64,000 bases of DNA from Agromyces mediolanus (lineage in GTDB: Bacteria; Actinomycetota; Actinomycetes; Actinomycetales; Microbacteriaceae), in assembly GCF_014648575.1 (NCBI RefSeq), contig NZ_BMRJ01000001.1, positions 434,653-498,652 on the forward strand, written 5' to 3'. Positions 19,268 to 38,527 of the stretch are shown piece by piece (within the stretch, counting starts at the first letter, position 1; each line of letters starts with the position of its first letter). Position numbers and translations under genes: made by a program. The notes under the pieces were generated by a model that did no database searches, was not told the origin of the DNA, and saw only the letters and a list, made by a program, of their open reading frames with translations.

Positions 19268-19288
19268 CGAGGAGTCTCCGGGTGGATG

Positions 19289-19320: not shown

Positions 19321-19326
19321 TCGCGG

Positions 19327-20915: not shown

Positions 20916-21893
20916 ATGAACCCCACCCCCGACGCCGCCCTCGACGTCCTGACCATCGGCCGGGTCGGCGTCGACCTGTACCCGCTGCAGGACGCGACCC
21001 CGCTCGAGGAGGTGTCGACCTTCGGCAAGTACCTCGGCGGCAGCGCGACGAACGTCGCCGTCGCGGCGGCCCGGCACGGCCTCTCCTCCGCCGTGGTCAC
21101 GCGCACCGGCGACGACCCCTTCGGCCGCTTCGTGAGCCAGGAGCTCACCCGCCTCGGCGTCGACGCCCGCTTCGTCGCGCCCCTGCCCGGCCGCAAGACG
21201 CCGATCACCTTCTGCGAGATCTACCCGCCCGACGACTTCCCGCTGTACTTCTACCGCGACCCGATCGCGCCCGACCTCCTCATCGAGGCCGCCGAGCTCG
21301 ACCTCGACGCGATCCGCGACGCCCGCGTCTACTGGGCGACGGCGACGGGGCTCTCCGAGGAGCCGAGCCGCTCGGCGCACCTCGCCGCCTGGACCGCCCG
21401 CGGTCGCGCGCCGCTCACCGTGCTCGACCTCGACTACCGCGCGGTGTTCTGGGAGCACGAGCAGCTCGCCCGCGAGCAGGTGTCCGCCGCGCTCGAGCAC
21501 GTCACCGTCGCCGTCGGCAACCTCGAGGAGTGCGACATCGCCGTGGGCGAGCGCGACCCCCAGCGGGCCGCCGACGCGCTCCTCGACCGCGGCGTCGAGC
21601 TCGCCGTGGTCAAGCAGGGGCCGCGCGGCGTCCTCGCGAAGACCCGTGACGAGACGGTCGAGGTGCCGCCGCACCTCGTCTCGGTCGTGAACGGCCTCGG
21701 CGCGGGCGACGGCTTCGGCGGCGCGCTGTGCCGCGGGCTGCTCGCGGGCGAGTCGCTCGACCGGGTCATCCGCTTCGCCAACGCGGCCGGCGCCATCGTC
21801 GCCGGCCGCCGCGAGTGCTCGACCGCCATGCCGACGACCGCCGAGGTCGAGACCGCGCTCGCCGCGGCCGCCGAGGGGAGCCGGGATGCCTGA
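20916..21893 (+). CDS. iolC: 5-dehydro-2-deoxygluconokinase (IolC)
   Basis: PfkB-type sugar kinase, 325 aa, that phosphorylates 2-deoxy-5-keto-gluconate in myo-inositol breakdown. The N-terminal ribokinase motif reads GRVGVDLYPLQ..., then GGSATNVAVAAARHG. The C-terminal signature is NGLGAGDGFGGALCRGLL with the catalytic Asp in GAGD. ATG at 20916 with CGGAG upstream. First gene of the inositol operon; it overlaps the next gene by 8 bp. Order and neighbours (aldolase-fold gene, iolB, iolD) support the assignment. Confidence 0.93.
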   Translation: MNPTPDAALDVLTIGRVGVDLYPLQDATPLEEVSTFGKYLGGSATNVAVAAARHGLSSAVVTRTGDDPFGRFVSQELTRLGVDARFVAPLPGRKTPITFCEIYPPDDFPLYFYRDPIAPDLLIEAAELDLDAIRDARVYWATATGLSEEPSRSAHLAAWTARGRAPLTVLDLDYRAVFWEHEQLAREQVSAALEHVTVAVGNLEECDIAVGERDPQRAADALLDRGVELAVVKQGPRGVLAKTRDETVEVPPHLVSVVNGLGAGDGFGGALCRGLLAGESLDRVIRFANAAGAIVAGRRECSTAMPTTAEVETALAAAAEGSRDA

Positions 21894-22818
21894 GCCGACC
21901 ATCGCCGCCGAGCCCGCCGCGGGCGGGCTGCCGCCCGAGTCCTACGCGGCGCTCCGCGAGGCGCGCGCCGCCGACCCCGACGCCATCGCCCGCGCGCTCG
22001 ACGCGCGCCGCTCGCGCCAGCTGCTCCGCGGCGACCGCCGGCTGTTCATCGTCGCGGCCGACCACCCGGCCCGGGGCGCCCTCGGCGTCCGCGACGACGA
22101 CTTCGCCATGGCCGACCGCTACCGCCTGCTCGACCGGCTCGCGATCGCCCTCCGCCACCCCGGCGTCGACGGTGTGCTCGGCACCCCGGACGTCATCGAG
22201 GACCTCGCCCTGCTCGGCCTCCTCGACGACAAGATCGTCGTCGGCTCGATGAACCGGGGCGGCCTGCGCGGTGCCGCGTTCGAGATGGACGACCGCTACA
22301 CGGGCTACGACGTGCCGACGATGGTGCGCTCGCGGCTCGACTTCGGCAAGCTCCTGGTGCGGGTGAACCTCGAGGACCGGGCCACCGCGCCGACCCTGCA
22401 GGCCACCGCCGAGGCGGTCGGCCAGGCCGCCGCGGCCCGGCTGCCGATCATGCTCGAGCCCTTCATGAGCTCCTGGCGCGACGGGCGCATCGTCAACGAC
22501 CTGAGCGCGGAGGCCGTGATCACCTCGATGGCGATCGCCTCCGGCCTCGGCACCAGCTCGGCGTACTCGTGGCTGAAGCTGCCCGTGGTGCCCGAGATGG
22601 AGCGCGTGATGGCCGCCTCCACCCTGCCGACCCTGCTACTCGGCGGCGACCCGCGCGAGCGCCCCGACGAGACGTACGCCTCGTGGGCCGACGCGCTCGA
22701 GCTGCCGGGCGTGCACGGGCTCGTCGTCGGCCGCACCCTGCTCTACCCGCCGGACGGCGACGTGCACCGGGCCATCGACACCGCGGCCCGCCTCGTGCAC
22801 CCGGGAGGACTGGCATGA
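21886..22818 (+). CDS. Cgl0159-family (beta/alpha)8-fold protein, putative IolJ-type aldolase
   Basis: A 310-aa TIM-barrel protein of the family named after Corynebacterium glutamicum Cgl0159, which is found beside iolC and iolB in actinobacterial inositol clusters. Visible blocks are LFIVAADHPARGALGV near residue 53, the HPGVDGVLGTPDVIEDLALLG stretch in two parts, and VGRTLLYPPDGDV near the C-terminus. By context it may cleave 2-deoxy-5-keto-gluconate 6-phosphate to dihydroxyacetone phosphate and malonate semialdehyde, replacing IolJ. That role is inference. It overlaps iolC by 8 bp and iolB by 4 bp. Confidence 0.83.
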   Translation: MPEPTIAAEPAAGGLPPESYAALREARAADPDAIARALDARRSRQLLRGDRRLFIVAADHPARGALGVRDDDFAMADRYRLLDRLAIALRHPGVDGVLGTPDVIEDLALLGLLDDKIVVGSMNRGGLRGAAFEMDDRYTGYDVPTMVRSRLDFGKLLVRVNLEDRATAPTLQATAEAVGQAAAARLPIMLEPFMSSWRDGRIVNDLSAEAVITSMAIASGLGTSSAYSWLKLPVVPEMERVMAASTLPTLLLGGDPRERPDETYASWADALELPGVHGLVVGRTLLYPPDGDVHRAIDTAARLVHPGGLA

Positions 22819-23732
22819 GCGCGCGCTGGCTGCACCGGCGCGGCGAGCTGGCCGAGGGGCCCTGGGAGTCCGTCGTCGACGACCGTGTCGAGGGCTGGAG
22901 CTGGACGGGCCTCCGAGTGGCCGAACTCGACGCCGACGCCGCGCTCGCCCTCCCCGCCGGCGGGCTCGAGCGCCTCGTCGTGCCGCTCGCCGGCAGCTTC
23001 GCGCTCGAACTGGAGCACGCCGACGGGCGGCGCGAGCGCCTCGATCTGCGCGGCCGCGACTCGGTCTTCGCCGGGCCGAGCGATGTCGCCTACCTCGGCG
23101 TCGGCACCGCCGCGACGCTCAGCGGCTCCGGCCGGGTGGCCGTCGCCGAGGCGCCGAGCGACGAGCGGCACCCCTCCCGGCGGATCGCCGCCGAGGAGGT
23201 GCCCGTCGAGCTCCGCGGCGCCGGGCGCTCGAGCCGGCAGGTGCACAACTTCGGCACGCCGGAGACGCTCGCGGCCGGCCGCTTCATCGTCTGCGAGGTG
23301 CTCACCCCGGCCGAGAACTGGTCGTCGTACCCGCCGCACAAGCACGACGAGCACGTGCCGGGCGCCGAGTCGCAGCTCGAGGAGATCTACTACTTCGAGG
23401 CGGCCGTGACCCGCGGCGCCGAGGCGCCGGCCGGCGCGGAGCCGTTCGGCCTGTTCTCCACCTCGAGCTCCCCGGCCGGCGAGATCGAGATCGACGGCCG
23501 GGTGGGCACGGGCGACATCGCGCTCGTCCCCTTCGGCTACCACGGGCCGGCGGTCGCCGCGCCCGGCTACGACCTGTACTACCTGAACGTCATGGCCGGC
23601 CCCGGGCCGGAGCGCGCCTGGCGGATCAGCGACGACCCCGCGCACGCGTGGGTGCGCGACAGCTGGGCGGGCCAGGAGCTCGACCCGCGACTGCCGTACC
23701 GCGCGCCCGCCTCGGAAGGAGCACGACCATGA
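22815..23732 (+). CDS. iolB: 5-deoxy-glucuronate isomerase (IolB)
   Basis: Bicupin isomerase of 305 aa that converts 5-deoxy-glucuronate to 2-deoxy-5-keto-gluconate. The metal site shows SYPPHKHDEH (His175, His177) and Glu190 in QLEEIYYFE, all family-typical. Its start overlaps the upstream stop (ATGA) and its own stop overlaps the iolD start (ATGA), so translation is coupled along the operon. Confidence 0.93.
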   Translation: MSARWLHRRGELAEGPWESVVDDRVEGWSWTGLRVAELDADAALALPAGGLERLVVPLAGSFALELEHADGRRERLDLRGRDSVFAGPSDVAYLGVGTAATLSGSGRVAVAEAPSDERHPSRRIAAEEVPVELRGAGRSSRQVHNFGTPETLAAGRFIVCEVLTPAENWSSYPPHKHDEHVPGAESQLEEIYYFEAAVTRGAEAPAGAEPFGLFSTSSSPAGEIEIDGRVGTGDIALVPFGYHGPAVAAPGYDLYYLNVMAGPGPERAWRISDDPAHAWVRDSWAGQELDPRLPYRAPASEGARP

Positions 23733-25636
23733 CCGCACGCAACGCCACCCGGCGGATGACCGTGAGCCAGGCCCTCGTCGAGTTCCTGGCCAATCAGTGG
23801 ACCGTCGACGGCGACGTCCGCGAGCGCACCATCGCCGGCACCTTCGGCATCTTCGGCCACGGCAACATCGCCGGCGTCGCGCAGGCGCTGAAACAGCTCG
23901 CCCGCGAGGACCCGGCCCGCATGCCATACCACCAGGCGCGCAACGAGCAGGCGATGGTGCATCAGGCCGTCGGCTACGCGCGGATGCACCGCCGGCGCGC
24001 GACCTACGCGTGCACCGCCTCGGTCGGCCCCGGCGCGACGAACATGCTGACGGGGGCGGCCCTCGCCACCACCAACCGGCTGCCCGTGCTGCTGCTGCCC
24101 TCGGACACCTTCGCGACGCGCGTCGCCGACCCGGTGCTGCAGCAGCTCGAGCTGCCGCACGACGCGACGGTGTCGGTGAACGACGCGTTCCGCCCGCTCT
24201 CGCGCTTCTTCGACCGGGTGAGCCGCCCCGAGCAGCTCTTCTCGGCCGCGCTCGGCGCGATGCGCGTGCTGACCGACCCCGTGGAGACCGGCGCGGCCAC
24301 GATCTCGCTCCCGGAGGACGTGCAGGCCGAGCTCATCGACGTGCCGCTCGAGTTCCTCCGCGAGCGGGAGTGGCACGTGCGCCGACCGCAGCCCGAGCCG
24401 GGCGAACTCGCCCGCGCCGTGGCGGCCATCCGCGGCGCGGCGGCGCCGCTCATCGTGGCCGGCGGCGGCGTGCTCTACTCCGACGCGGCCGAGGAGCTGC
24501 GCCGCTTCGCCGAGGCGACGGGCATCGCGGTCGCGACGACGCAGGCCGGCGTCGGCGCCCTGCCGTGGGACCACCCGCTCGCCGCGGGCTCGGTCGGCGC
24601 GACCGGCACCACGACCGCCAACCGGCTCGCCGCCGAGGCCGACCTGGTGATCGGCATCGGCACGAGGTACAGCGACTTCACGACCGCGTCGCGTTCGGCG
24701 TTCCAGCACCCCGGGGTGCGCTTCGTGAACCTCAACGTCGCGAGCTTCGACGCGCTGAAGCACGGCACCGAGCTGCCCCTCGTTGCCGACGCCAGGGCCG
24801 GCCTCGCCGCCCTCGGCGCCGAGCTGGCGGGCTACACCACCTCCGCCGGGTACCGCGGCGCGCTCGCCGAGGGCAAGGCGGCCTGGGACGGCGTGGTGGA
24901 TGCCGCGTTCGCCCCGAGCGGTCGGCCGCGGCCCGCGCAGTCCGAGATCATCGGGGCCGTGCAGGCGGCGAGCGATCCCCGCGACGTCGTCGTCTGCGCC
25001 GCCGGCTCGCTGCCGGGCGACCTGCACAAGCTGTGGCGGGTGCGCGACGACCTCGGCTACCACGTCGAGTACGCGTACTCCTGCATGGGCTACGAGATCG
25101 CGGGCGGCCTCGGCGTGCGCCGCGGCGCCCCCGACCGCGACGTGATCGTCATGGTCGGCGACGGCTCGTACCTGATGATGCACACCGAGATCGTCACGGC
25201 GGTCGCCGAGGGGCTGAAGGTGATCATCGTGCTGATCCAGAACCACGGCTACGCCTCGATCGGCGCGCTCAGCGACACGGTCGGCACCGACCGCTACGGC
25301 ACGCGCTACCGCTATCAGGATGCCGAGGCGAACGACGTCGACCCGGAGCGGGCACTGCCCGTCGACCTCGCGGCGAACGCGGCGAGCCTCGGCATCGACG
25401 TCGTCCGCATCGAGCCCGGCGCCGACGTCGTCGCGCAGCTGGGCGAGGCGGTGCGGGCGGCGAAGGCCTCGCCGACCGCGACGCTCATCCACGTCGAGAG
25501 CGATCCGCTCATCCCCGCGCCCGACGGCGGCGGCTGGTGGGACGTGCCCGTCGCGGCCGTCTCGGAGCTGTCGAGCACGCAGCGCGCCCGCGCGGCGTAC
25601 GAGGCGGCCCGCGAGGCGCAGCGCCCGCTCGTCTGA
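23729..25636 (+). CDS. iolD: 3D-(3,5/4)-trihydroxycyclohexane-1,2-dione hydrolase (IolD)
   Basis: Thiamine-diphosphate enzyme, 635 aa, that opens the ring of the diketone formed from inosose to give 5-deoxy-glucuronate. The N-terminal MTVSQALVEFLANQ and GIFGHGNIAGVAQAL are IolD hallmarks. The pyrimidine-domain glutamate region is RNEQAMVHQAVGYA, and the ThDP/Mg motif begins MVGDGSYLMM. The ATG at 23729 with GGAAGGAG upstream overlaps the iolB stop. The frame stays open past the stop only in another phase; the real stop is at 25634-25636. Confidence 0.94.
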   Translation: MTARNATRRMTVSQALVEFLANQWTVDGDVRERTIAGTFGIFGHGNIAGVAQALKQLAREDPARMPYHQARNEQAMVHQAVGYARMHRRRATYACTASVGPGATNMLTGAALATTNRLPVLLLPSDTFATRVADPVLQQLELPHDATVSVNDAFRPLSRFFDRVSRPEQLFSAALGAMRVLTDPVETGAATISLPEDVQAELIDVPLEFLREREWHVRRPQPEPGELARAVAAIRGAAAPLIVAGGGVLYSDAAEELRRFAEATGIAVATTQAGVGALPWDHPLAAGSVGATGTTTANRLAAEADLVIGIGTRYSDFTTASRSAFQHPGVRFVNLNVASFDALKHGTELPLVADARAGLAALGAELAGYTTSAGYRGALAEGKAAWDGVVDAAFAPSGRPRPAQSEIIGAVQAASDPRDVVVCAAGSLPGDLHKLWRVRDDLGYHVEYAYSCMGYEIAGGLGVRRGAPDRDVIVMVGDGSYLMMHTEIVTAVAEGLKVIIVLIQNHGYASIGALSDTVGTDRYGTRYRYQDAEANDVDPERALPVDLAANAASLGIDVVRIEPGADVVAQLGEAVRAAKASPTATLIHVESDPLIPAPDGGGWWDVPVAAVSELSSTQRARAAYEAAREAQRPLV

Positions 25637-25689
25637 GCCCGCGCGACCGAATCATCGGGGCGCCCGGCGCCCCAGTCGAGAGGAGAACC

Positions 25690-26487
25690 ATGTCCACCGT
25701 CCCCGTGACCCGGGTGCTGGCCGACGCCGAGGCCGTCGCCGAGTTCGTCGCCGAACGCATCGCCGACGGCATCGAGCGCGCCCGCGAGGCCGGCGCCGAC
25801 TACGTGCTCGGCTGCCCGAGCGGCCGCACGCCGCTGCCGACGTACCGCGCGCTCGCGCGCCTCGTCCGCGAGCGCGGGCTCGCCATCTCGCACGTGCGCA
25901 TCGCCCTGATGGACGACTACGTGGTCGAGACCGAGTCGGGCTTCCGCAACGTCGACCTCGAGGCGCACAACAGCTGCCGCCGCTTCGTCCGCGACGAGGT
26001 GGTCGGCCCGCTGAACGCGGCCGCGGCCGACGAGGGGATGCCGGAGGACCGGCTGCTCCAGCCGGATCCGGCGAACCCCGAGGCGTACGACGAACTGCTG
26101 CGCGAGGCGGGCGGCATCGACTGCTTCCTGCTCGCGAGCGGTGCCGGCGACGGGCACGTGGCCTTCAACCCGCCCGGTTCGGCCCGCGACAGCGGCAGCC
26201 GGATCGTGCGGCTGGCCGAGCAGACCCGCATCGACAACCTGGGCACCTTCCCCGAGTTCGGCTCGCTCGACGCGGTGCCGAGCCACGGGCTCACGGTCGG
26301 CATCGGCACGATCGCGGAGCTCTCCCGCAGCGCGGTGATGATCATCACGACAGCGGAGAAGCGCGAGGCGTTCGAGCGCATCTCGACCGCTGCGGCGTAC
26401 GACCCGGAGTGGCCCGCGACCGTCGTCGCGGAGTGCGCCGACGCGCTCGTCGTGGCCGATCGCGCCGCCGCCGGAGTGCGCGAGTAG
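25690..26487 (+). CDS. NagB/6-phosphogluconolactonase-family protein
   Basis: A 265-aa protein of the sugar-phosphate isomerase/deaminase family. The motifs LGCPSGRTPLPTYRAL (phosphate loop), IALMDDYV (NagB: MDEY) and GDGHVAFNPPGS (NagB: GDGHIAFNEPGS) fit glucosamine-6-phosphate deaminase better than gluconolactonase. AGGAGAACC precedes the ATG, 53 bp after iolD on the same strand, so it is the last gene of the inositol operon. NagB would turn an amino-sugar phosphate into a keto-sugar phosphate plus ammonia. Classical inositol breakdown needs no such step, which makes its presence notable. Confidence 0.85.
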   Translation: MSTVPVTRVLADAEAVAEFVAERIADGIERAREAGADYVLGCPSGRTPLPTYRALARLVRERGLAISHVRIALMDDYVVETESGFRNVDLEAHNSCRRFVRDEVVGPLNAAAADEGMPEDRLLQPDPANPEAYDELLREAGGIDCFLLASGAGDGHVAFNPPGSARDSGSRIVRLAEQTRIDNLGTFPEFGSLDAVPSHGLTVGIGTIAELSRSAVMIITTAEKREAFERISTAAAYDPEWPATVVAECADALVVADRAAAGVRE

Positions 26488-26519
26488 GCGGCGCGCCATC
26501 CCGTTCGATGGCTTTGTAT

Positions 26520-26532
26520 TGTCAAATTGACA
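26520..26532. promoter_or_regulatory. Candidate operator/promoter of the PHP-transporter operon
   Basis: TGTCA-AAT-TGACA is an inverted repeat 64 bp before the PHP gene. It shares the TGTC/GACA half-sites of the operators at 20870 and 36055 but with wider spacing. The TTGACA at 26527-26532 can also serve as a -35 box (weak -10 GAGGAT at 26550-26555), so the site would overlap the promoter. Confidence 0.4.
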
Positions 26533-26596
26533 TTCTGACATCACTGGTCGAGGATGGGACTGCGCTCGCGCACCTCCCCCGATTCAAGGACGCATC

Positions 26597-28072
26597 ATGA
26601 CCGCACCCTCTGCCGATCGACCCGGCACCGTGCTGCTCGACGTCGCCGACGTGCTGCGGCAGCCGCTGCCCGGCGAGTACCTCGATCGGGTCGTCGACGT
26701 GCCTGCGGGCACGGGGGAGCTGCGGGTCGAGCTCGACTACGACAAGGTCACCGACCGCTTCCAGCTCTACGCCGCGCTCATCGACCCCGACGGCGTGTTC
26801 CGCGGGCACGTGCAGTGCCCCGGCGGCCCGGGCCCGCGCGAGCTGCGCTTCACCGTCGGTGAGCGGCACGCGAGCCCCGGCGCCATCGCGGGGCCCATCC
26901 CCGCGGGGGCCTGGACCCTCCGGATCGACCTCGACCGCTTCCGCGAGGACGGCCCCTATGCGCTGCGGCTCATCGCGGTGCCGGGAGAGTCCGGAGCGCC
27001 GACGGCGGCGCCCGACGCCGAGGGGCGGACCGAGGCATCCGCCGCGCCGGCCTCCGGTGCCGAGCCCGCGAGCGCGCCGAGCTGGCTCCGCGGCGAGCTG
27101 CACTGCCACTCGGTGCACAGCGACGGGCGCGACGGGGTCGACGCCATCGTCGCCGAGGCGCGCCACCGCGGCTTCGACTTCCTCGCGCTCAGCGACCACT
27201 TCACCTGGAGCCACTGGGGGCCGCTCGCCGAGGCCGCGACCGCGGCCGGCGGGCCGATCGTGCTGCCCTCGATCGAGGTCACCACGCACCGCGGCCACGG
27301 CAACGCCCACGGCCTACGCGAGTGGGTCGACGTGTACGTCGACGGCCCCGGGCGGGGCGCGGGCGAACTCGTCCGCGAGGTCCACGCGCAGGGTGGGCTG
27401 TTCGGCGTCAACCACCCCTTCAGCGGCCAGCAGGCCTGGCGGCGCGCCGACGTGCCGTGGGCCGAGGTCGACCTGCTCGAGGTCGTGAACCAGGGGCAGG
27501 ACGCCAACAACGACGCCGCCATCGGCCTCTGGGACCGCCTGCTCGCCGAGGGCCACGACATCGCCCCCGTCGCCGGCACCGACTGCCACGAGCTCGGCGA
27601 CCCCGCCCAGCGCCTCGGCCAGGTGGTCACCGCCGTGCGGGTCGCCGAGCGCAGCGCCGAGGGCCTGCTCGACGGGCTCCGCCGCGCCGCCACCGTCGTC
27701 ACCCGCGGCGCGGAGCTCGAGCTGCGGCTGCGCAGCGAGGGCCGGGAGGCCGGCCTCGGCGAGCACCTCGAGCTCGGGGCGGGCCCCGTCGAGCTCGAGA
27801 TCGACTTCCGCATCGACGTGCCCTGCGCCCTGTTCGTGCTGCGCGACGGCCTGATGTGGTTCCAGGGCGACGTCGAGCCCGAGCAGTCGCGGCTCGTCGT
27901 CGTCGACGAGGAGCCCGTCGCCGCGGCGTACCGCGTCGAGCTGCACCGCCGCTCCGACGACCCGCGGCACTGGGCGTCCGCCTGGCGCTCGCACGAGTCC
28001 TTCGAAGCCCTCACGAGCTTCGTCCGCACTGTCCATCGCACCACCAGTCACACGCACGAAGGAGAATCATGA
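26597..28072 (+). CDS. PHP-domain metallophosphoesterase (CehA-like)
   Basis: A 491-aa protein with an N-terminal beta-rich domain (about 1-130), a Pro/Ala linker (130-162) and a PHP domain (165-375). Metal ligands are visible: HCH (169-171), SDH (199-201), Glu227, NHP (272-274) and GTDCH (327-331). PHP enzymes hydrolyse phosphate mono- or diesters with two or three metals. A C-terminal beta domain (about 390-470) follows. No export signal is seen, so it should act in the cytosol on an imported phosphate ester. It is first in an operon with an AfuA-type importer and an IolE-like enzyme; the stop overlaps the next start (ATGA). Confidence 0.85.
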   Translation: MTAPSADRPGTVLLDVADVLRQPLPGEYLDRVVDVPAGTGELRVELDYDKVTDRFQLYAALIDPDGVFRGHVQCPGGPGPRELRFTVGERHASPGAIAGPIPAGAWTLRIDLDRFREDGPYALRLIAVPGESGAPTAAPDAEGRTEASAAPASGAEPASAPSWLRGELHCHSVHSDGRDGVDAIVAEARHRGFDFLALSDHFTWSHWGPLAEAATAAGGPIVLPSIEVTTHRGHGNAHGLREWVDVYVDGPGRGAGELVREVHAQGGLFGVNHPFSGQQAWRRADVPWAEVDLLEVVNQGQDANNDAAIGLWDRLLAEGHDIAPVAGTDCHELGDPAQRLGQVVTAVRVAERSAEGLLDGLRRAATVVTRGAELELRLRSEGREAGLGEHLELGAGPVELEIDFRIDVPCALFVLRDGLMWFQGDVEPEQSRLVVVDEEPVAAAYRVELHRRSDDPRHWASAWRSHESFEALTSFVRTVHRTTSHTHEGES

Positions 28073-29106
28073 AGCACGGCAGGAAGTTCGCCGCGGTCGG
28101 CATCGCCGCCGTCTCGGCGTCGCTCGTCCTCAGCGGCTGCAGCGCCATCGTCGGCGGCCAGCCCGCGGGCGGCGACGACTCGGCCGAGTCCGGCACCGTC
28201 GTCGTCTACGCGGCGCACGGCCCCGAGGTGACCGACCCCATCATCGCCGCGTTCGAGAAGGCGTACCCCGACATCTCGGTCTCGCTCACCGCGAGCCCCG
28301 GCACGGGCGAGCTCATCAGCCGCGTCGAGAGCGAGATGAAGAACCCGCTCGGCGACGTCGCCTGGGGCGGCTCGAGCGAGAACTACGCGGCCGCGTCCGA
28401 GGGCGCCTTCGCCGCGGTCGAGCTCGAGAACGACGAGGCCACCGTCGTCACCGACCCCGAGCACAAGTGGCACGCCACCGACGCGCTCTTCCAGGCCATC
28501 GCGGTGAACACCGAGCGCGTCACCGACGCGTCGAGCTACCCCGAGAGCTTCGAGGACCTGGCCGACCCGAAGTGGCGCGAGGCGGGCCAGATCGCCTTCG
28601 CGAACCCGCGCTCCTCGGGCACCTCCTACTCGCTGCTCGCCGCCATGGTGACCGCGCACGACTGGGACTTCCTCGACGGTTTCCTGCCGAACGCGAAGGT
28701 CGTCGACGGCAGCTCGCAGATGTTCGACGGCGTGCGCACCGGCGAGTACGCGCTCGGCTTCATCAACGAGGACCTCGGCGCGACCTGGGTCGCCGAGGGC
28801 GCCCCGCTCGAGCTCATCTACCCGAGCGACGTCGTGTCGAACCAGATCGGCGTCGCCGCCGTGATCGAGGGCGCGAAGCACCCGAAGGCCGCCGAGACCT
28901 TCGTGAACTACCTCATGTCGAAGGAGGCGCAGCAGCTCATGGTCGACGAGGTCGGCCGCCGCTCCGCGCGCACCGACGTCGCCCCGCCCGCCGGGCTGCC
29001 CGCCGCCGACGAGCTGAACCTCGCCGCTCCGGACCCCAAGGTCTTCGCGACCGACAAGGACGCCGTGCTCGCCCGCTTCGACGAGAAGCTCGCGAGCGCC
29101 AAGTAA
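28069..29106 (+). CDS. AfuA/FbpA-type ABC substrate-binding lipoprotein
   Basis: Solute-binding protein of 345 aa with lipobox LSGC (Cys24). After the signal peptide comes VVVYAAHGPEVTDPIIAAFEKAYPD, the usual start of this class. The ferric-binding tyrosine pair of FbpA is not seen; the C-terminal part reads LGFINEDLGATWVAEGAPLELIYPSD in two blocks, as in AfuA-type proteins that bind hexose phosphates or phosphonates. A phosphorylated ligand is therefore plausible, matching the phosphoesterase encoded just upstream. A strong hairpin follows the stop. Confidence 0.82.
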   Translation: MKHGRKFAAVGIAAVSASLVLSGCSAIVGGQPAGGDDSAESGTVVVYAAHGPEVTDPIIAAFEKAYPDISVSLTASPGTGELISRVESEMKNPLGDVAWGGSSENYAAASEGAFAAVELENDEATVVTDPEHKWHATDALFQAIAVNTERVTDASSYPESFEDLADPKWREAGQIAFANPRSSGTSYSLLAAMVTAHDWDFLDGFLPNAKVVDGSSQMFDGVRTGEYALGFINEDLGATWVAEGAPLELIYPSDVVSNQIGVAAVIEGAKHPKAAETFVNYLMSKEAQQLMVDEVGRRSARTDVAPPAGLPAADELNLAAPDPKVFATDKDAVLARFDEKLASAK

Positions 29107-29117
29107 TCCATCCCCGA

Positions 29118-29148
29118 GGCCGGGTCGACGCGACGCGTCGGCCCGGCC
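29118..29148 (+). terminator. Intra-operon hairpin after the binding-protein gene
   Basis: GGCCGGGTCGACGC (29118-29131) pairs with GCGTCGGCCCGGCC (29135-29148), 14 bp with one G-U pair and a 3-base loop. Like the hairpin at 19289-19320 it separates a binding-protein gene from its permease gene and probably sets their ratio. Confidence 0.6.
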
Positions 29149-29163
29149 GGAAACGGTGCCACC

Positions 29164-30897
29164 ATGCCTAGCAACGACCTGCGGGAACGCGTCGAACCGC
29201 TCGAGGAGACGCTCGCGCCGCCCGCACCCGTCCCCGTCAAGCGCCGCGCGAGCCGTCGCCCCGGCGTCTGGCTCCTCGTCGCGCTCGGGCTGCTCCTGCT
29301 GCTCGCCTCGACGATCGTGCTCCCGCAGCTGCGGCTCGTCGGCGAGGCGTTCACGGACGACGGCGGCTTCTCGTTCGCGAACTTCATCGAGTTCTTCACG
29401 ACGCCGAGGTTCCAGGAAGCCATCCTGAACTCCCTCGTCGTCGCGGTCGTCGCGGGCGTGCTCGCCTGCGCCGTCGCGGTGCCGGCGGCCTACGTGCTCG
29501 CGCAGTTCGACCTGCCGGGCCGCAACGGCTTCCTCACCCTCGCCACGATGGCGACGGTGTCGCCGCCGTTCCTCGGCGCCTACGCGTGGGTGCTGCTGCT
29601 CGGCCGCGGCGGCATCCTCACCACCCAGCTGCGGGCGTGGGGCATCGAGCTGCCGTTCGACACCATCATCGGGCCCGGCGGCATCGTCTGGGTGACCGTC
29701 TGGGCCACCCAGGCCCTCGTCTTCCTGCTCGCCTACGACGCGTTCCGGGCGATCGACCCGAGCCTCGACGAGGCCTCCTCGAGCGTCGGCGCCGGCCCCT
29801 GGCGCACCCGCCTGCGGATCGTGCTGCCGATGGCGGTGCCGGCACTTGTGACCGGGTTCTACATGTCGAGCATGAAGATCTTCACCGACTTCGGCACGCC
29901 GCTCATCATCGGCGGCGGCACCCCCATGCTGCCCACCGCGGTGTACTACGAGTTCCTCTCCGAGGTCTCGACGAACCCGGCCATCGCTTCGGCCGGCAGC
30001 CTCGTCATGCTCGGCGTCGCCTGCATCGCCCTCGCCCTGCAGCAGTGGGCGCTGCGCCGCCGCACCTACGCCTCGGTGTCGAGCCGGCGCCGTCCGCTCC
30101 AGCCGGTGCGCGGTGTGAAGAAGGGCCTCATGATCGCGTACCTGGGCGTCGTCTTCGGCCTCTCCTTCGTGCCGCACCTCGTCGTCGTCGGCACGAGCCT
30201 GCTCACCTGGAAGGCGGGCATCCTGAAGTGGATCCCCACCTTCGACAACTACGTGCGGCTCTTCGACGAGAACCTCGAGGTCATCCTGATGAGCCTGCTG
30301 CTCGCGGGCATCGCCTGCGTGCTCTGCGTCATCGTCGCCGTGCTCGTCGCGTACCTCACCGTGCGCCGCCGCTACACGGTCATCAGCCCCGCGCTGAACG
30401 TCATCACGATGGTGCCGTACATCATCCCGGGCACCGTGCTCGCGATCGGCCTCATCCTCGCCTTCGGCAGCGGGCCGCTGATCCTCACCGGCACGGCGAC
30501 GATCCTCGTGCTGGCGTACTTCATCCGCCGCATCCCGTACGTGACCAAGTCGATCGAGGCCGCGCTCACGCAGGTGCACCCGGCCCTTGAGGAGGCGGCC
30601 ATGAGCGTCGGCGCGAAGCCCATGCGCGCCTTCCGGCAGATCACGGTGCCGCTCGTGCGGCCCGCGATCGTGTCCGGCGGCACCGTCGGCTTCCTGCAGA
30701 TGGTCACCGAGCTGAGCGCCACGGTGATGCTGTACTCGGTGCCGTTCATCACGATGACCGTCGTCATCTTCACGAACGCGATGCAGCCGGCGAGCCCCTT
30801 CGGCGTCGCCTCCGCCATGACCGTCGTGCTGATGCTGGCCGTCTACATCCCGCTGTACTTCGTGCGGCGCAAGTTCGCCTCGGTCACGAGCGTCTAA
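29164..30897 (+). CDS. Fused two-domain ABC permease (AfuB/FbpB type)
   Basis: Inner-membrane permease of 577 aa made of two consecutive binding-protein-dependent transport domains with about 12 membrane segments. Two EAA-type loops are visible: SLDEASSSVGAGPWRTRLRI (about 198-217) and ALEEAAMSVGAKPMRAFRQI (about 475-494), one per half. This fused layout is typical of the AfuABC/FbpABC class. It sits between the binding protein and the ATPase genes (16 bp to the next). Confidence 0.88.
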   Translation: MPSNDLRERVEPLEETLAPPAPVPVKRRASRRPGVWLLVALGLLLLLASTIVLPQLRLVGEAFTDDGGFSFANFIEFFTTPRFQEAILNSLVVAVVAGVLACAVAVPAAYVLAQFDLPGRNGFLTLATMATVSPPFLGAYAWVLLLGRGGILTTQLRAWGIELPFDTIIGPGGIVWVTVWATQALVFLLAYDAFRAIDPSLDEASSSVGAGPWRTRLRIVLPMAVPALVTGFYMSSMKIFTDFGTPLIIGGGTPMLPTAVYYEFLSEVSTNPAIASAGSLVMLGVACIALALQQWALRRRTYASVSSRRRPLQPVRGVKKGLMIAYLGVVFGLSFVPHLVVVGTSLLTWKAGILKWIPTFDNYVRLFDENLEVILMSLLLAGIACVLCVIVAVLVAYLTVRRRYTVISPALNVITMVPYIIPGTVLAIGLILAFGSGPLILTGTATILVLAYFIRRIPYVTKSIEAALTQVHPALEEAAMSVGAKPMRAFRQITVPLVRPAIVSGGTVGFLQMVTELSATVMLYSVPFITMTVVIFTNAMQPASPFGVASAMTVVLMLAVYIPLYFVRRKFASVTSV

Positions 30898-30913
30898 AGA
30901 AAGCGAGAGAGCA

Positions 30914-32041
30914 ATGGAACGTGGCAACGGAGTCGCCGTCGGCGTCGAGGCCATCAGCAAGGAGTTCCCGGGGCACGTCGCGCTGAAGGGCGTCGACCTC
31001 GAGATCGAGGCGCGCTCGTTCACGACGCTGCTGGGGCCCTCGGGCTGCGGCAAGACGACGCTGCTGCGCATCCTCGCGGGCTTCGAGACCGCGACGAGCG
31101 GCCGGGTCACCTTCGACGGGCGCGACATCGCGCGGATGCCGTCGTGGAAGCGCAACATCGGCTTCGTCTTCCAGAACTATGCGCTCTGGCCGCACATGAG
31201 CATCCGCGACAACATCGCCTACGGGCTGAAGCTGCGCAAGCTCGGCAAGGAGCAGATCGCCGAGCGGGTCGCCGAGTCGCTGCGGATGGTCGGCCTCGAC
31301 GGCCGCGCCGAGGCGTTCCCGGGCCAGCTCTCCGGCGGGCAGCAGCAGCGCGTCGCCATCGCCCGCGCCCTCGCGCTCCGGCCGAACGTGCTGCTCCTCG
31401 ACGAGCCGCTGTCGAACCTCGACGCGAAGATGCGCATCGGCATGCGCCAGGAGCTGCTGCGCCTGCAGCGCGAGGTCGGCATCACCGCGGTCTACGTGAC
31501 GCACGACCAGGAGGAGGCGCTCGAGATGAGCGACCAGGTCGCGGTCATGCACGACGGCCGCATCGACCAGGTCGGCTCGCCGCAGGCGATCTACGAGACC
31601 CCGGAGACGGCGTTCGTCGCCTCCTTCATCGGCCACGTGACCCTCCTCGGCGGCGTGAGCGACGGCGCCGGCGGCTTCCGCCCCGACCTGCCGATCGCCG
31701 GCACCCTGCCCGCGTTCAGCGGTGCGCTCCCGAACGGCCGGGCGCAGCTCGTGCTCCGGCCCGAGGACCTCGACCTCGTCGACGACGTCGAGCAGGCGCA
31801 CCTCCGCGGCACCCTGGTGCGCTCGAGCTACCACGGCCGCGGCTACCGGTCCGCGCTGCGGCTGGCCGACGGCACGATGTGCGAGGTCGACCACCGCCGT
31901 CCGGTGGCGGCCGGCACGGGCGAGGAGGCCGGCATCCGCGTCGGCGCAGCCGCCCTCGTCCCCGAGTCGGACGACTACTATCGCGAAGCGGCGCCCGAGG
32001 CCGAGGCGGCCGAGGAGCTCGTCGCCGCACCGGCCGCGTGA
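30914..32041 (+). CDS. ABC transporter ATPase (AfuC/PotA type)
   Basis: ATPase of 375 aa that powers the adjacent importer. Walker A is GPSGCGKT (41-48), the Q-loop is FVFQNYALWPH, the signature is LSGGQQQRVA, Walker B is LLLDEPLSNLD and the switch is VTHDQEEALE. A C-terminal TOBE-like regulatory domain follows (about 240-350). The extreme C-terminus is Ala/Glu-rich and probably disordered. The AAAGAAAGCGAGAG segment ahead of the ATG supplies the ribosome site. Confidence 0.9.
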   Translation: MERGNGVAVGVEAISKEFPGHVALKGVDLEIEARSFTTLLGPSGCGKTTLLRILAGFETATSGRVTFDGRDIARMPSWKRNIGFVFQNYALWPHMSIRDNIAYGLKLRKLGKEQIAERVAESLRMVGLDGRAEAFPGQLSGGQQQRVAIARALALRPNVLLLDEPLSNLDAKMRIGMRQELLRLQREVGITAVYVTHDQEEALEMSDQVAVMHDGRIDQVGSPQAIYETPETAFVASFIGHVTLLGGVSDGAGGFRPDLPIAGTLPAFSGALPNGRAQLVLRPEDLDLVDDVEQAHLRGTLVRSSYHGRGYRSALRLADGTMCEVDHRRPVAAGTGEEAGIRVGAAALVPESDDYYREAAPEAEAAEELVAAPAA

Positions 32042-32067
32042 GCGACCGCAGGAAGAAGGAGCAGCAG

Positions 32068-32961
32068 ATGCGCATCGGTTCGGCCCCCGTCAGCTTCGGC
32101 ATCCACGGCGGGGCGGATGTCTCCAAGCTCGCCGCGACCCCGCGCGAGCTCGTCGCGGCGATGGCGGCCGCCGGCTACACCGGCTCGGAGCTCGGCCCGC
32201 CCGGGTTCTTCGGCACCCCCGAGCAGACCGCGACCCTGTTCGCCGACCACGGCCTCGCCGTGCTCGGCGCCTACGTGCCGCTGCACCTCAGCCAGCCGGA
32301 CGAGGTCATGGCGGCCGACCTCGAGGGCATGCGCCGCACGCTCGAGGAGCTGGCCGCGGCCGGCGGCGAGGGGCTCGCCATCCTCGCCGACGAGGGCGAC
32401 GAGGCGATCATCGCGCACCCGTTCCGCCCGAACGCCGAGCGCGGCCTCGACGCCGCGCAGTGGGACCTCGCGCTCGAGCGCCTCGCCGCGGCCGAGGAAC
32501 TGGCCCGCCAGGCCGGCCTGCGCACGAGCTTCCACCCGCACTTCGGCACCTACGTGGAGCAGGCGCCCGAGATCGACGTGCTGCTCCAGCGCACCGGCAT
32601 CGGCCTCTGCCTCGACACCGGCCACTTCGTGCTCGGCGGCGCCGACCCGGTCGCGTACCTGCGCGAGTGGGGCCACCGCGTGAACCACGTGCACGTGAAG
32701 GACGTCCGCCCCGCCGTGCTCGAGGCCGCGAAGGCCTCGGGCAACGAGCGCATCGACGACTGGTGGGACGAGGTCTCGGTGCCGCTCGGCACCGGCGACG
32801 GGCCGCTCGAGGAGTTCCTCGCCGAGATCCGCCGCAGCGACTACGACGGCTGGCTCGTCGTCGAGCAGGACGGCGCGCCCGCGACCGCCGAGACCTGGGA
32901 CCGCATCGTCGGCGACCAGCGGCACAACCACGACTGGATCGCCGAGCGGCTCGGCCGATGA
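32068..32961 (+). CDS. iolE: IolE-like TIM-barrel dehydratase/isomerase
   Basis: A 297-aa sugar-phosphate isomerase/epimerase-fold protein. It resembles inosose dehydratase IolE: N-terminal IGSAPVSFGI, AGYTGSELGPPGFFG, HPHFGTYVE (about 154-162), LCLDTGHFVLGGADP and the metal-site segment VNHVHVKDVRP, then DGWLVVEQD. The metal ligands of the family (Glu, Asp, His, Glu) have counterparts here. IolE makes the trihydroxycyclohexane-dione that IolD opens, so it would complete the inositol route. A relative acting on another inosose or keto-glycoside is possible. AAGGAG lies 7 bases before the ATG. Confidence 0.78.
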   Translation: MRIGSAPVSFGIHGGADVSKLAATPRELVAAMAAAGYTGSELGPPGFFGTPEQTATLFADHGLAVLGAYVPLHLSQPDEVMAADLEGMRRTLEELAAAGGEGLAILADEGDEAIIAHPFRPNAERGLDAAQWDLALERLAAAEELARQAGLRTSFHPHFGTYVEQAPEIDVLLQRTGIGLCLDTGHFVLGGADPVAYLREWGHRVNHVHVKDVRPAVLEAAKASGNERIDDWWDEVSVPLGTGDGPLEEFLAEIRRSDYDGWLVVEQDGAPATAETWDRIVGDQRHNHDWIAERLGR

Positions 32962-33920
32962 CCGAGGCCGTGCTCGCCCTCGACGTCGGGGGCACGAAGG
33001 CGCACGGCGCGCTCGTCGACCGCGAGTACCGGCTGCTCGACGAGGGCTTCGCGCGGACCGCCGGGCGCGACCCCGGCCTCGCGGCGACGCTCGGCCTCGC
33101 CGCCGAGCTGCTCGAGCGGGCCCGGAACACCGGCACGGCGGTGCGCGCCGTCGTCGCCGGCTTCCCCGAGTACGTCTCGAACGAGGGCGTCGTGACCGCG
33201 CACGAGGTGCTCGACTGGACCGTGCAGCCCGGCGAGGCGCTCGCCGGGCTCGCGGGCGGCGTGCCGGTTCGCATCGCGAGCGACGTGAAGGCGGGCGCGC
33301 TCGGCGAGCTCGCCCTCGGCCGCGGGCGGGAACACGACGGCTTCGTCTACGTGTCGCTCGGCACCGGCATCTCGACCGCGATCGTGCTCGACCGCACGCT
33401 CCACGATGGCGTGCGCGGCGAGGCGATCGGCTTCGGCGAGTGGTCGGTGCCCGCCGAGCTCGACCCCGAGTGGCGCGGCAACCTCGAGGGCTTCGCCTCC
33501 GGCTCCGGCATCGCGGCCCGCTACCTCGCCCGCACCGGCACCGAGCTCGCCGAGGGCGGCGCGCGCGGCGTGCTCCAGGCGGATGCCTCGGGCGACCCCG
33601 TCGCCGCCGAGATCGTCGACACCGCCGCCGTCGCGATCGGGCGCGCCATCGCGCAGCTCGTCTCGCTGCTCGACCCGCCCGCGATCGTGCTGGCGGGCGG
33701 CCTCGGCTCCGCGGACACCCGGCTGGCCCGAGGCATCCGCACCGAGTACGAGCGCGTCGCATCGCGCCGGCCGTCCCCGCCGCCGCTGCTGTCGAGCGGC
33801 GTGCCCACGAACCCCGGACTCCTGGGCGCCGCCGCGCTCGCCTGGGAGCTCGCCACCGCCTCCGAGGCCGCACCGCCGCCCGCGGCCGGCCCGGCATCAC
33901 GAGAAGAGAGAACCGCATGA
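32958..33920 (+). CDS. ROK-family sugar kinase lacking the zinc motif
   Basis: A 320-aa sugar kinase-like protein. The ATP phosphate loop LALDVGGTKAHGAL lies at residues 6-19, and the catalytic-base region SDVKAGALGE places Asp109. VYVSLGTGISTAIVLD follows. The usual ROK zinc site CxCGxxGC is missing: the matching region reads EWRGNLEGFASG without any Cys, as in a minority of ROK proteins. The start overlaps the upstream stop (ATGA). A hexose or hexosamine kinase role would fit the NagB-like gene of operon 1; the substrate is not shown by sequence. Confidence 0.82.
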   Translation: MTEAVLALDVGGTKAHGALVDREYRLLDEGFARTAGRDPGLAATLGLAAELLERARNTGTAVRAVVAGFPEYVSNEGVVTAHEVLDWTVQPGEALAGLAGGVPVRIASDVKAGALGELALGRGREHDGFVYVSLGTGISTAIVLDRTLHDGVRGEAIGFGEWSVPAELDPEWRGNLEGFASGSGIAARYLARTGTELAEGGARGVLQADASGDPVAAEIVDTAAVAIGRAIAQLVSLLDPPAIVLAGGLGSADTRLARGIRTEYERVASRRPSPPPLLSSGVPTNPGLLGAAALAWELATASEAAPPPAAGPASREERTA

Positions 33921-35038
33921 CCGCACCCGTCCGCATCGCCGTGATCGGCGCAGGCACCATCACCCAGTCGGTGCACCTGCCGAGCCTCGCGCGCGCCGGC
34001 TACGAGATCGCCGTCGTCTGCGACCTGTCGCCGTCGCGCGTCGCCGAGGTCACCGGACGCACCGGCATCCGCGGCACCACCTCCCCGGCCGAGGCGATCG
34101 CCGCGCCCGAGGTCGAGGCGGTGCTCATCGCCACGCCCGGCTCGCACGCGCAGCTCGCGCTCGCCGCCATCCGCGCCGGCAAGCACGTGCTCGCCGAGAA
34201 GCCGCTCGCGCTCACCATCGCCGAGATCGAGGAGCTCGAGGCGGCGGCCGCGGAGGCCGGCGTCGTCGCGCAGGTCGGCTACATGAAGATGTACGACCCG
34301 CTCACCGAGCGGGCGCGCGCGGAGCTCGCCGAGCTCGACGACGTGCGCCTGGTGCGCATCACCGTCGCCCACCCCGACGACCTGCCGCAGGTCGACCACC
34401 TGCGGATGACGCCGCCGCAGCCCGACGCCGACCTCGCCGAGATCGAGCGGGCGCAGGCGTACGAGGCCGAGCAGTCGGCGATCGCCCTGCCCGGCGCTTC
34501 GGAGGCGGTGCAGCGCTACTACCGGAACGTGCTGAACGGCTCGGTCGTGCACGAGCTGAGCCTGCTGCGCGCCCTCGGTCTGGAGCTGCCCGAGACGTGG
34601 ACCGCCGAGGCGTTCCCCAGCCTCGAGGGCAGCGCGCCGGCCTCGCTCATCGCGACCGCCGCCGTCGGCGACGTGCGCTACGTCCTGAGCTGGAACTGGC
34701 TGCCCGAGTACCCCGAGTACGACGAGGAGCTGAAGGTGCTCGCCTCGAACGGCCGCCTCGAGTACCACCTCGCGAAGCCGTACCTGCTCGAGGAGCGCAG
34801 CCGCCTCCGCGTCGAGCGGAACGTCGGGCTCGAGCGCCGCGACACGAGCTACGCCGACGGCTACGAGACGGGCTTCCTTCGCCAGCTCGACGCCTTCGCC
34901 CGCTCCATCCGCCACGACGAGCCCGTCGTCTCGGACTTCGCCGGCGCCAAGCGCGACGTGCGCAGCCTGCAGGCGCTCGCGAAGGCCGTCGCGGCCGCCC
35001 GCGGCGAGACGGTCCGCACGGAGTCCGACGCGGCCTGA
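33917..35038 (+). CDS. Gfo/Idh/MocA-family oxidoreductase
   Basis: NAD(P)-dependent dehydrogenase, 373 aa. The Rossmann motif VIGAGTITQSVHLPSL lies at residues 9-24 and the catalytic motif AEKPLAL at 93-99. The domain layout is that of inositol 2-dehydrogenase and glycoside 3-dehydrogenases. With no other IolG-like gene in the window, it may oxidise inositol or an inositol derivative to the inosose used by the IolE-like enzyme. Its ATG overlaps the ROK stop (ATGA), and it is the last gene of the operon before a long repeat region. Confidence 0.84.
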   Translation: MTAPVRIAVIGAGTITQSVHLPSLARAGYEIAVVCDLSPSRVAEVTGRTGIRGTTSPAEAIAAPEVEAVLIATPGSHAQLALAAIRAGKHVLAEKPLALTIAEIEELEAAAAEAGVVAQVGYMKMYDPLTERARAELAELDDVRLVRITVAHPDDLPQVDHLRMTPPQPDADLAEIERAQAYEAEQSAIALPGASEAVQRYYRNVLNGSVVHELSLLRALGLELPETWTAEAFPSLEGSAPASLIATAAVGDVRYVLSWNWLPEYPEYDEELKVLASNGRLEYHLAKPYLLEERSRLRVERNVGLERRDTSYADGYETGFLRQLDAFARSIRHDEPVVSDFAGAKRDVRSLQALAKAVAAARGETVRTESDAA

Positions 35039-35051
35039 GGCCAGCCCCCCT

Positions 35052-35093
35052 CGACGGGCTCGGGGAACCACGCGTGGTTCCCCGAGCCCGTCG
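35052..35093. repeat. 42-bp perfect palindrome
   Basis: The half CGACGGGCTCGGGGAACCAC plus G (35052-35072) is followed directly by its exact complement (35073-35093), giving a 21-bp-arm perfect palindrome. It lies 13 bp after the last operon gene and can form a very stable hairpin, so it may end that transcript. Its arms share the GACGGGCTC core with the neighbouring repeat array. Confidence 0.85.
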
Positions 35094-35104
35094 TTCGGCT
35101 GGCC

Positions 35105-35250
35105 CGCTGAGCCCGTCGAAGCGTTGGTCCGCTGAGCTCGTCGAAGCGTTGGTTCGCTGAGCCCGTCGAAGCGTTGGCCCGCTGAGCCTGTCGAAGCGCC
35201 CCCTCGACGGGCTCGGGGAACCAAGATGGTTCGCTGAGCCCGTCGAAGCG
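35105..35250. repeat. 25-bp-period tandem array of CGCTGAGCCCGTCGAAGCG
   Basis: Near-identical 19-mers start at 35105, 35130, 35155 and 35180, exactly 25 bp apart, with single substitutions (GAGCTC, GAGCCT) and TTGGTC-like linkers. A fifth copy is at 35232-35250. Between the fourth and fifth lies an inverted arm CTCGACGGGCTCGGGGAACC. This GAGCCTGTCGAAG-type element is a dispersed intergenic repeat that I recognise from actinobacterial genomes. It fills the gap between two convergent operons. Confidence 0.85.
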
Positions 35251-35262
35251 CGGGGGCCGCTT

Positions 35263-36036
35263 TTACTTCTGCACGAGCGTGACGTCGAAGGAGTAGAGGT
35301 CGGGGCGGTAGCAGTGCGTGCCGAGCTCCACCGCCCGCCCGGAGTCGTCGAAGACGGTCCGCGAGGCGGTGAGCACCGGGGCGCCGTCCTCGAGCTCCAG
35401 CAGCTCGCTCTCGTCGGCGCTCGCACGGCGGGCGCCGATGCGCTGTCGGGCGACGCGCATGGTCGTGCCGCGGGAGCGCAGCACCTGGTAGAGCCCGTAG
35501 CTCTGCAGTGCCGCCGTGTCGAGATCGAGGTAGTCGGCGGGCAGCACGTTGTCGAGCACCGCGACGGGCACCCCGTCGGCGGAGCGCAGCCGGCGCAGGT
35601 GCAGCGTGTCGCTGCCGAGCGGCACGGCGAGCGCCTCGGCGACCGCCGCGCTCGCCGGCAGCGTCTCGCGGGAGAGCAGCGCGGTCGTGGGCACCTGGCC
35701 GCCGCGGATGAGGTCGTCGAAGAGGCTCGTGAGTTCGAGCCCGCGCGTCACCTGCCCCTGCACGACCTGCGTCCCGATGCCGCGCCGGCGGACGAGCAGG
35801 CCCTTGTCGACGACCTCCTGGATGGCCCGGCGGATCGTCGGCCGGGAGATGCCGAGCCGCTCGCTGAGGGCGATCTCGTTCTCGATGCGGGACCCGGCGG
35901 GCAGGGCGTGCGAGGTGATCGCCGATTCGATGCGCTCGGCGACCTGGTAATACAGCGGGACGGGGCTCGAACGATCGAGGTCCATGAACAGCTCGGGCGG
36001 GAACGGGGCGTCGCCCACCGTCGTCGTCTCTGCCAC
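35263..36036 (-). CDS. GntR-family regulator with UTRA domain, likely inositol-locus regulator
   Basis: A 257-aa regulator. The winged HTH (about 27-90) includes IENEIALSERLGISRPTIRRAI, and the UTRA sensor (about 105-250) includes ALLSRETLPASAAVAEAL and ends RPDLYSFDVTLVQK. I choose the GTG at 36034-36036 with GGAGGA upstream; a Met 17 codons later is the alternative. It is convergent with the PHP-transporter operon. An inverted repeat TGTC-AA-GACA lies 19 bp upstream of the start, and the same core precedes iolC, so it probably represses its own gene and the inositol locus. Confidence 0.86.
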   Translation of the reverse strand: MAETTTVGDAPFPPELFMDLDRSSPVPLYYQVAERIESAITSHALPAGSRIENEIALSERLGISRPTIRRAIQEVVDKGLLVRRRGIGTQVVQGQVTRGLELTSLFDDLIRGGQVPTTALLSRETLPASAAVAEALAVPLGSDTLHLRRLRSADGVPVAVLDNVLPADYLDLDTAALQSYGLYQVLRSRGTTMRVARQRIGARRASADESELLELEDGAPVLTASRTVFDDSGRAVELGTHCYRPDLYSFDVTLVQK

Positions 36037-36054: not shown

Positions 36055-36072
36055 ATATGTCAAGACAAATAT
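36055..36072. promoter_or_regulatory. Operator of the GntR gene (TGTC-AA-GACA type)
   Basis: ATATGTCAAGACAAAT (36055-36070) is an inverted repeat with the core TGTC-AA-GACA (36058-36067), identical to the core of the iolC operator. On the minus strand a -10-like TATATT (36073-36068) overlaps its edge, so binding would block the gene's own promoter. Confidence 0.55.
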
Positions 36073-38440: not shown

Positions 38441-38456
38441 CGCAGACCTCCATTTA

Positions 38457-38512: not shown

Positions 38513-38527
38513 TGGAAGAATTGCGGC

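Follow-up and report, generated by a model that had tools for sequence, protein, structure and literature searches.

The window analysed here is a stretch of 64,000 nucleotides from an Agromyces genome (3.86 Mb, 11 contigs, 99.97% complete). It holds an inositol (iol) operon accompanied by genes for a PHP phosphoesterase, ATP-binding cassette (ABC) importers, an IolE-like protein, a ROK-family kinase, a Gfo/Idh/MocA oxidoreductase (Gfo) and a NagB-like protein. Positions are those of the window; compared genomes and loci carry G and L numbers. On the plus strand, iolC (5-dehydro-2-deoxygluconokinase, 20916-21893; TIGR04382 371.6 bits, cut-off 300), a Cgl0159-like aldolase gene (21886-22818; PF22649 421.9 bits, over cut-off), iolB (5-deoxy-glucuronate isomerase, 22815-23732; TIGR04378 222.8 bits, cut-off 205) and iolD (23729-25636; TIGR04377 832.3 bits, cut-off 715) are followed by the NagB-like gene (25690-26487), assigned to a distinct clade by family profiles, a tree and residues. 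Further along the same strand are the PHP phosphoesterase of the CehA/McbA family (26597-28072; NF038032 178.6 bits, cut-off 80; metal-type residues), an AfuA/PhnS2-type solute-binding protein (SBP; 28069-29106; phnS2 116.2 bits), a fused PhnU2-type ABC permease (29164-30897; TIGR03262 177.5 bits), a PhnT2-type ABC ATPase (30914-32041; TIGR03265 362.8 bits), the IolE-like TIM-barrel protein (32068-32961), the ROK-family kinase (32958-33920; PF00480 122.8 bits and alignment) and Gfo (33917-35038; PF01408 88.2 bits); the IolE-like protein and Gfo were assigned to their clades A using trees. A minus-strand gntR gene (35263-35985) closes the array. All named genes are open reading frames, mostly overlapping or close together. 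In profile searches, curated cut-offs were exceeded by iolC, the Cgl0159-like gene, iolB, iolD and PHP, while the NagB-like, IolE-like, Gfo, ROK and SBP proteins matched their families below equivalog cut-offs.

Divergent from iolC, on the minus strand, lie GntR0, a GntR/UTRA-type regulator of NagB-like modules (16646-17395; NCBIfam GntR families), two CUT1-type sugar ABC permeases, mgl3 (17478-18308) and perm0 (18305-19267), and the sugar-binding protein sbp0 (19327-20673; weak PDB matches to ABC sugar-binding proteins). GntR0 homologues adjoin NagB-like genes in most compared loci, and the importer proteins are 66-67% (mgl3), 67% (perm0) and 59% (sbp0) identical to those of L042 and L048. 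In other genomes, homologues of the genes at 16646-20673 accompany Gfo, IolE-like, NagB-like and ROK genes; this divergent importer and its regulator are therefore counted as part of the locus, which extends beyond its first description. Gene order is the same in A. soli (L016; protein identities 94-100%) and in the compared A. mediolanus genome (L017; 88-99%), so the locus is no chance array; for the NagB-like gene, identity reaches 99% with A. soli KACC 16215 and 94% with A. mediolanus. The genes and families named in a first-pass annotation of this DNA were all recovered as open reading frames and in profile searches. Its second operon proved on genome comparison to be a composite of two units. 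Judged by that comparison, the locus is made of three units: the iol operon; PHP with its ABC importer; and Gfo, IolE-like, NagB-like and ROK genes with the sugar importer.

A survey of inositol clusters (IolCatGC) defines them as at least three of iolB, iolC, iolD and iolE within 10 kb (PMC9430895); here iolC, iolB and iolD score over their cut-offs and are adjacent. iolB is the sole KduI/IolB match in the genome. As first annotated, no iolA is present in the locus; two MMSDH-family genes score over cut-off elsewhere in the genome. No IolG in the genome exceeds the TIGR04380 cut-off of 355 bits (window Gfo 107.5, genome best 135.8), a cut-off passed by just 3 of 12 genomes tested. The IolE-like protein likewise falls below the TIGR04379 cut-off (148.6 versus 290 bits), which is a poor test in Microbacteriaceae, since only 1 of 49 iolD-bearing relatives passes it. 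With 48 of these 49 failing the IolE cut-off, use of the NCBIfam IolE and IolG cut-offs as proof of absence was dropped. A profile search of the genome found no second IolE above 34.6 bits, which leaves the IolE-like protein as the only candidate to feed IolD. iolD exceeds its cut-off in 49/150 Microbacteriaceae genomes, near the 41% of 789 Microbacteriaceae species given for the inositol cluster in the survey (PMC9430895).

Most fetched iol loci adjoin a GntR gene 56-68% identical to gntR. A palindromic candidate operator, TTTGTCNNGACAAA, precedes iolC (TTTGTCAAGACAAA, 20872-20885, plus strand, 43 bp upstream) and gntR (TATGTCAAGACAAA, one mismatch, 36056-36069, plus strand). With at most two mismatches allowed, the window contains three matches where 0.14 are expected, and three were reached in 0/100 shuffles. 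The third, a weak operator-like site with two mismatches (26513-26526, plus strand), lies upstream of PHP; in A. mediolanus a one-mismatch core lies 83 bp upstream of PHP. Among the loci scanned, 9/17 further Microbacteriaceae iol loci have the core site near iolC or gntR, and 5/13 PHP loci have it near iolE or gntR. From these sites we infer that the locus is, at least in part, under one iol regulator.

PHP relatives were detected in 4/150 Microbacteriaceae genomes (E <=1e-20) and in 69/394 genomes of the class (E <=1e-18). Outside the lineage of the window 23 PHP loci were compared, 20 of them chosen by hand from the 69 genomes (mostly top matches, no random draw) together with L050, L051 and L052. 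A cassette was scored where an ABC ATPase with 44% or more identity to that of the window lay beside PHP or, in L096, behind the SBP and permease; L103, with an ATPase of 36% identity, was scored as having none. An adjoining ATPase was present in 17/23 loci. Within about 10 kb, an IolE-like gene was found in 10 of these 17 (L050, L097, L099, L100, L104, L108, L109, L110, L113 and L115) and in none of the 6 loci without the ATPase (Fisher P 0.017-0.019; one-sided 0.017). L104 and L110 carry iol genes in the same stretch as PHP, and in G079 and G296 they occupy a stretch neighbouring or overlapping the PHP locus (L055, L092). The exact cassette of the window (PHP, AfuA-type SBP, fused permease and ATPase; 45-58% identity) recurs in G334 (L096). 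Residues of the PHP metal type (H169, H171, D176, H201, E227, H273, D329 and H331) are kept in 26/26 sequences. The nearest PDB relative of the SBP is AfuA (4r72), in which phosphate is bound by Ser37 and Thr150 and the sugar ring by His205, Asp206 and Glu229 (PMC4546632). In the alignment, Ser37 is replaced by Thr and Thr150 is kept, giving a hydroxyl at both phosphate contacts, and the ring contacts become Asn, Glu and Gln, respectively; this suggests a phosphorylated ligand with another ring.

G589, a 1.9-Mb genome from another family, unites on one contig, within about 15 kb, NagB-like and ROK genes, a fusion protein, an ABC importer, two IolE-like genes, iolB, iolD and Gfo. The fusion protein (L083:11236-12783; 515 residues) joins a GDPD domain (residues 18-228) to an inositol monophosphatase domain (277-502). 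It adjoins the PhnT2-type ATPase of an importer with two permeases and an SBP; an MGH1-like glycosidase gene is also present, and iolB, iolD and the Gfo gene come next. Judged by gene content, G589 is an independent assembly of a comparable gene set. Two other genomes of that family, G462 and G418, have PHP behind ABC genes, with MGH1-like glycosidase and IolE-like genes nearby. Given this comparable place, PHP and the fusion protein may do the same job, cleavage of phosphate esters of inositol compounds. In G418, a NagA gene (228.5 bits) and a NagK-like gene converge on the PHP operon, a weak hint at an amino sugar.

The linkage of PHP and its importer to IolE-like genes, together with the operator sites and the assembly in G589, indicates that the extra genes are no random neighbours. 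It bears on the default alternative, that this is a normal locus for free inositol and that PHP, ROK and the NagB-like protein are chance neighbours or serve general phosphate and amino-sugar salvage. In its favour, neither the iol operon nor GntR is unusual in Microbacteriaceae, and extra genes are common in iol clusters (PMC9430895). We nevertheless think it unlikely, as the PHP/importer genes are recurrently associated with IolE, Gfo and iol genes, the NagB-like gene with Gfo, IolE-like and ROK genes, and the order is preserved in three Agromyces genomes.

Close homologues of the NagB-like protein are rare (10/150 Microbacteriaceae genomes at E <=6e-39, 5/60 of the genus and 14/394 of the class) and form a clade apart from ordinary NagB with support 100/100. 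The protein fails every NagB cut-off (TIGR00502, 112.3 versus 236.9 bits). Residues were counted in 22 NagB-like rows, a set without L049, where the gene is in three pieces. The Asp/Asp/His positions D75, D154 and H156 and the C-terminal-site K224 (Lys224) are kept in 22/22. The Ser of the substrate loop is replaced by Arg in 22/22, the Glu after FN is lost (to P, G or Q) in 22/22 and is E in 3/3 ordinary NagB, and the Arg of DNxRFF is lost in 22/22. Positions were matched to E. coli NagB numbering by alignment. Glu148 of the E. coli enzyme is in contact with its catalytic His143 (PMC4008608). The separate clade and the residue changes ruled out an ordinary NagB (glucosamine-6-phosphate deaminase), which counts against the first-pass interpretation. 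6-Phosphogluconolactonase was also ruled out (pgl 34.0 bits versus 132.4 for the glucosamine-6-phosphate deaminase subfamily). Databases label members of the clade as one or the other enzyme. In L049 (9822-12278; G009), the NagB-like gene and GntR0 are each broken into pieces.

Two settings recur for NagB-like genes, and in both a CUT1 importer and GntR0 are usual. In type A (the window, L042, L048, L018, L021, L023 and L079) the companions are Gfo, IolE-like and ROK genes; in type B they are GH4 and/or a BadF-type kinase. GH4 stands in for the Gfo/IolE-like pair in related NagB-like loci. GH4 enzymes act by NAD-dependent oxidation and elimination, and the exchange between NagB-like loci suggests that Gfo and the IolE-like protein perform a GH4-like oxidation and elimination. 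Oxidative deglycosylation by the Gfo/TIM-barrel pair, offered as an alternative in the first-pass annotation, fits this pattern. In trees, the IolE-like protein of the window groups with NagB-associated proteins (11 rows, 100/99), apart from PHP- and iol-associated ones, and Gfo does the same (10 rows, 100/99 to 100/100); G296 holds both the NagB-associated and the PHP/iol-associated sets, separately (L079; L092/L097). Ten IolE active-site-type residues were checked, and all are invariant in 23/23 IolE-like rows. A fold search recovered the full two-domain Gfo fold, with DgpA and 8qc6 tied among many others, and gave no separation of inositol from glycoside dehydrogenases. The GH4 proteins beside NagB-like genes (L043:8129-9544 and L022:3953-5269) carry CEG and CSG in place of CHS or CNP motifs.

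Of 11 plasmid records found (rhizobial, one Roseateles-labelled), 9, all except H3 and H11, were viewed for the same combination of genes. SBP, IolE-like, NagB-like, ROK, ATPase, two permease, Gfo and cupin genes stand together in 8/9. In trees made without L097 and L109, the plasmid Gfo and IolE-like proteins fall on other branches than those of the window. The proposal of an orthologous module reaching Proteobacteria was therefore withdrawn; the match is limited to the combination of genes and to the NagB-like and cupin genes.

Its presence on rhizobial plasmids brings in aminocyclitol degradation (of an inosamine, as in rhizopine), in which Gfo would oxidise beside the amine, the NagB-like protein would deaminate the amino ketone and the IolE-like protein would make the IolD substrate. 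Such a substrate would suit the NagB-like clade, which has lost the Glu in contact with the catalytic His of the E. coli enzyme (22/22), a carbocycle needing no ring opening, and rhizopine catabolism uses mocA, mocB and mocC, with a link to inositol proposed (PMC10107442). Coupling of the clade with GH4 elsewhere suggests a glycoside instead, and the ROK kinase, like the retained Lys224, points to a phosphosugar as substrate; aminocyclitol degradation is accordingly given little credence.

The tie of the NagB-like module to inositol genes was assessed through iolD, which exceeds its cut-off in 6/6 Actinomycete genera tested with type A (G000, G003, G024, G330, G447 and G296; a count made without loci L019, L020 and L021), P 0.0012 if the family rate of 49/150 applied. 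Among other NagB-like genomes, iolD is present in G338, G368 and G589, with none in G166, G318, G398 and G454. In G000, G330 and G589 the NagB-like gene and iolD are at most about 13 kb apart. This evidence bears on the alternative of two adjacent but independent pathways. One would be the iol operon together with a cassette for inositol phosphates, the other an unrelated module for an amino-sugar glycoside with an aglycone other than inositol. In its favour, 5/12 genomes whose NagB-like module includes GH4 or a BadF-type kinase have no iolD, the Gfo/IolE-like/NagB-like module is often distant from iol genes, and NagB-like modules have their own GntR0. Set against them are the 6/6 genera with iolD, the IolE-like gene as sole IolE candidate, and the placement in the window of IolE-like, ROK and Gfo genes within the PHP operon and of the NagB-like gene within the iol operon. 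Side-by-side pathways are a serious possibility, if on balance an unlikely one.

The reading we favour, somewhat short of an even chance, is that the locus serves catabolism of a phosphorylated, amino-sugar-bearing inositol conjugate, with substrate and chemistry deduced from gene content. In this scheme, the AfuA-type importer would take up a phosphorylated inositol derivative, e.g. a deacylated (glycosyl-)phosphatidylinositol head group, and PHP would take off the phosphate side, while a related inositol glycoside without phosphate would enter through the sugar importer. Gfo and the IolE-like protein would split the glycoside via oxidation and beta-elimination, ROK would phosphorylate the amino sugar, the NagB-like enzyme would then deaminate or isomerise it, and the inositol ring would be degraded via IolD, IolB and IolC.

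Several results weigh against this reading. The type-A module lies away from iol genes in 4/6 Actinomycete genomes (G003, G024, G447 and G296), no iol genes were seen in the 18-27 kb plasmid stretches viewed, and the plasmids share a gene combination and not an orthologous module. G003 and G024 carry their own IolG and IolE elsewhere. The base rate of 49/150 comes from one family, and three of the six type-A genera are outside it; iolD is also present in 7/12 type-B genomes, not significantly different from 6/6 (P 0.11). The operator is absent in 8/17 scanned Microbacteriaceae iol loci, and the core site was found near a recognised gene in 0/6 other module-A loci (L018, L021, L023, L042, L048 and L079). 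G334, with the closest PHP cassette, has no iol gene in the 20 kb seen (L096). The first-pass annotation named as a refutation of its idea a genome comparison in which its second operon normally occurs without iol genes and serves an unrelated sugar. This applies in part: the Gfo/IolE-like/NagB-like/ROK module is apart from iol genes in those four Actinomycete genomes and in 8 plasmid records. The PHP/importer cassette is linked to inositol genes in other Actinomycetes. Its suggestion that a conjugated inositol is used thus gains from the ties of the extra genes to inositol genes elsewhere and loses from the frequent separation of the module from iol genes.

A bolder form of the favoured reading is suggested by the IolE-like protein as the only IolE candidate in the genome, and we consider it doubtful. 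Gfo of clade A would oxidise the inositol half, the IolE-like protein would expel the sugar instead of water and deliver the IolD substrate directly, and a NagB relative remodelled to take a non-standard amino-sugar phosphate would finish the pathway. In G003 and G024, which have an IolG and an IolE of their own, the plain and the bolder mechanism are both allowed. If true, the bolder form would be a new way of cutting a glycosidic bond, IolE chemistry from the aglycone side. Inositol phosphates, phosphatidylinositol head groups and amino-sugar inositols (mycothiol and parts of glycosylphosphatidylinositol) are abundant; literature searches found no paper on bacterial catabolism of amino-sugar inositols and no described pathway. 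The comparison gives predicted functions to the widespread PHP/importer cassette, and it defines the NagB-like clade.

Other arrangements were observed around NagB-like genes. In Agromyces G166 (L075:3865-11585), which has no iolD in its genome, the gene is accompanied by ROK, by a gene of the phosphotriesterase family and by one with a SIS domain. In L085 (1076-9392), genes for a GMC-type oxidoreductase, an apionate-lactonase-like protein and an IolE-like protein adjoin NagB-like and ROK genes, and in L023 (11402-13098) a PfkB kinase and a DeoC-family aldolase lie downstream of the type-A module. A scan by motif alone for a PIG-L/LmbE deacetylase, taken as a mycothiol marker, gave no match in 24 loci. 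Between gfo and gntR of the window, 35046-35258 is a repeat array with 25-bp spacing and inverted arms. Beside the locus, 36168-39151 holds, to judge from a reading of the sequence, genes for an APC-type permease and a nitrilase-like protein on the minus strand, and a TetR gene.

The locus shares with rhizopine catabolism (moc) Gfo-type and TIM-barrel genes tied to the inositol pathway, and differs in having NagB-like, ROK and PHP genes. With iol clusters (IolCatGC) it shares iolB, iolC and iolD over cut-off, the Cgl0159-like aldolase and the usual GntR and operator; it differs in lacking iolA and an IolG over cut-off, in an IolE-like protein of the NagB-associated branch and in two inserted modules. 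The AfuABC sugar-phosphate importer is likened by the best PDB match of the SBP and the hydroxyl residues at both phosphate contacts, and set apart by three changed ring-binding residues and the fused PhnU2-type permease of the locus. NagB itself has in common the fold family, the catalytic Asp and His positions and the Lys at the C-terminal site, whereas the NagB-like protein belongs to a separate clade with Ser changed to Arg, Glu to Pro, Gly or Gln, and Arg lost. As in the oxidative deglycosylation systems (DgpA with DgpB/DgpC, GH4 and the GH188 sulfoquinovosidase), a gene for a Gfo-fold dehydrogenase adjoins one for an AP_endonuc_2 TIM barrel, but the TIM barrel of this locus is IolE-like.

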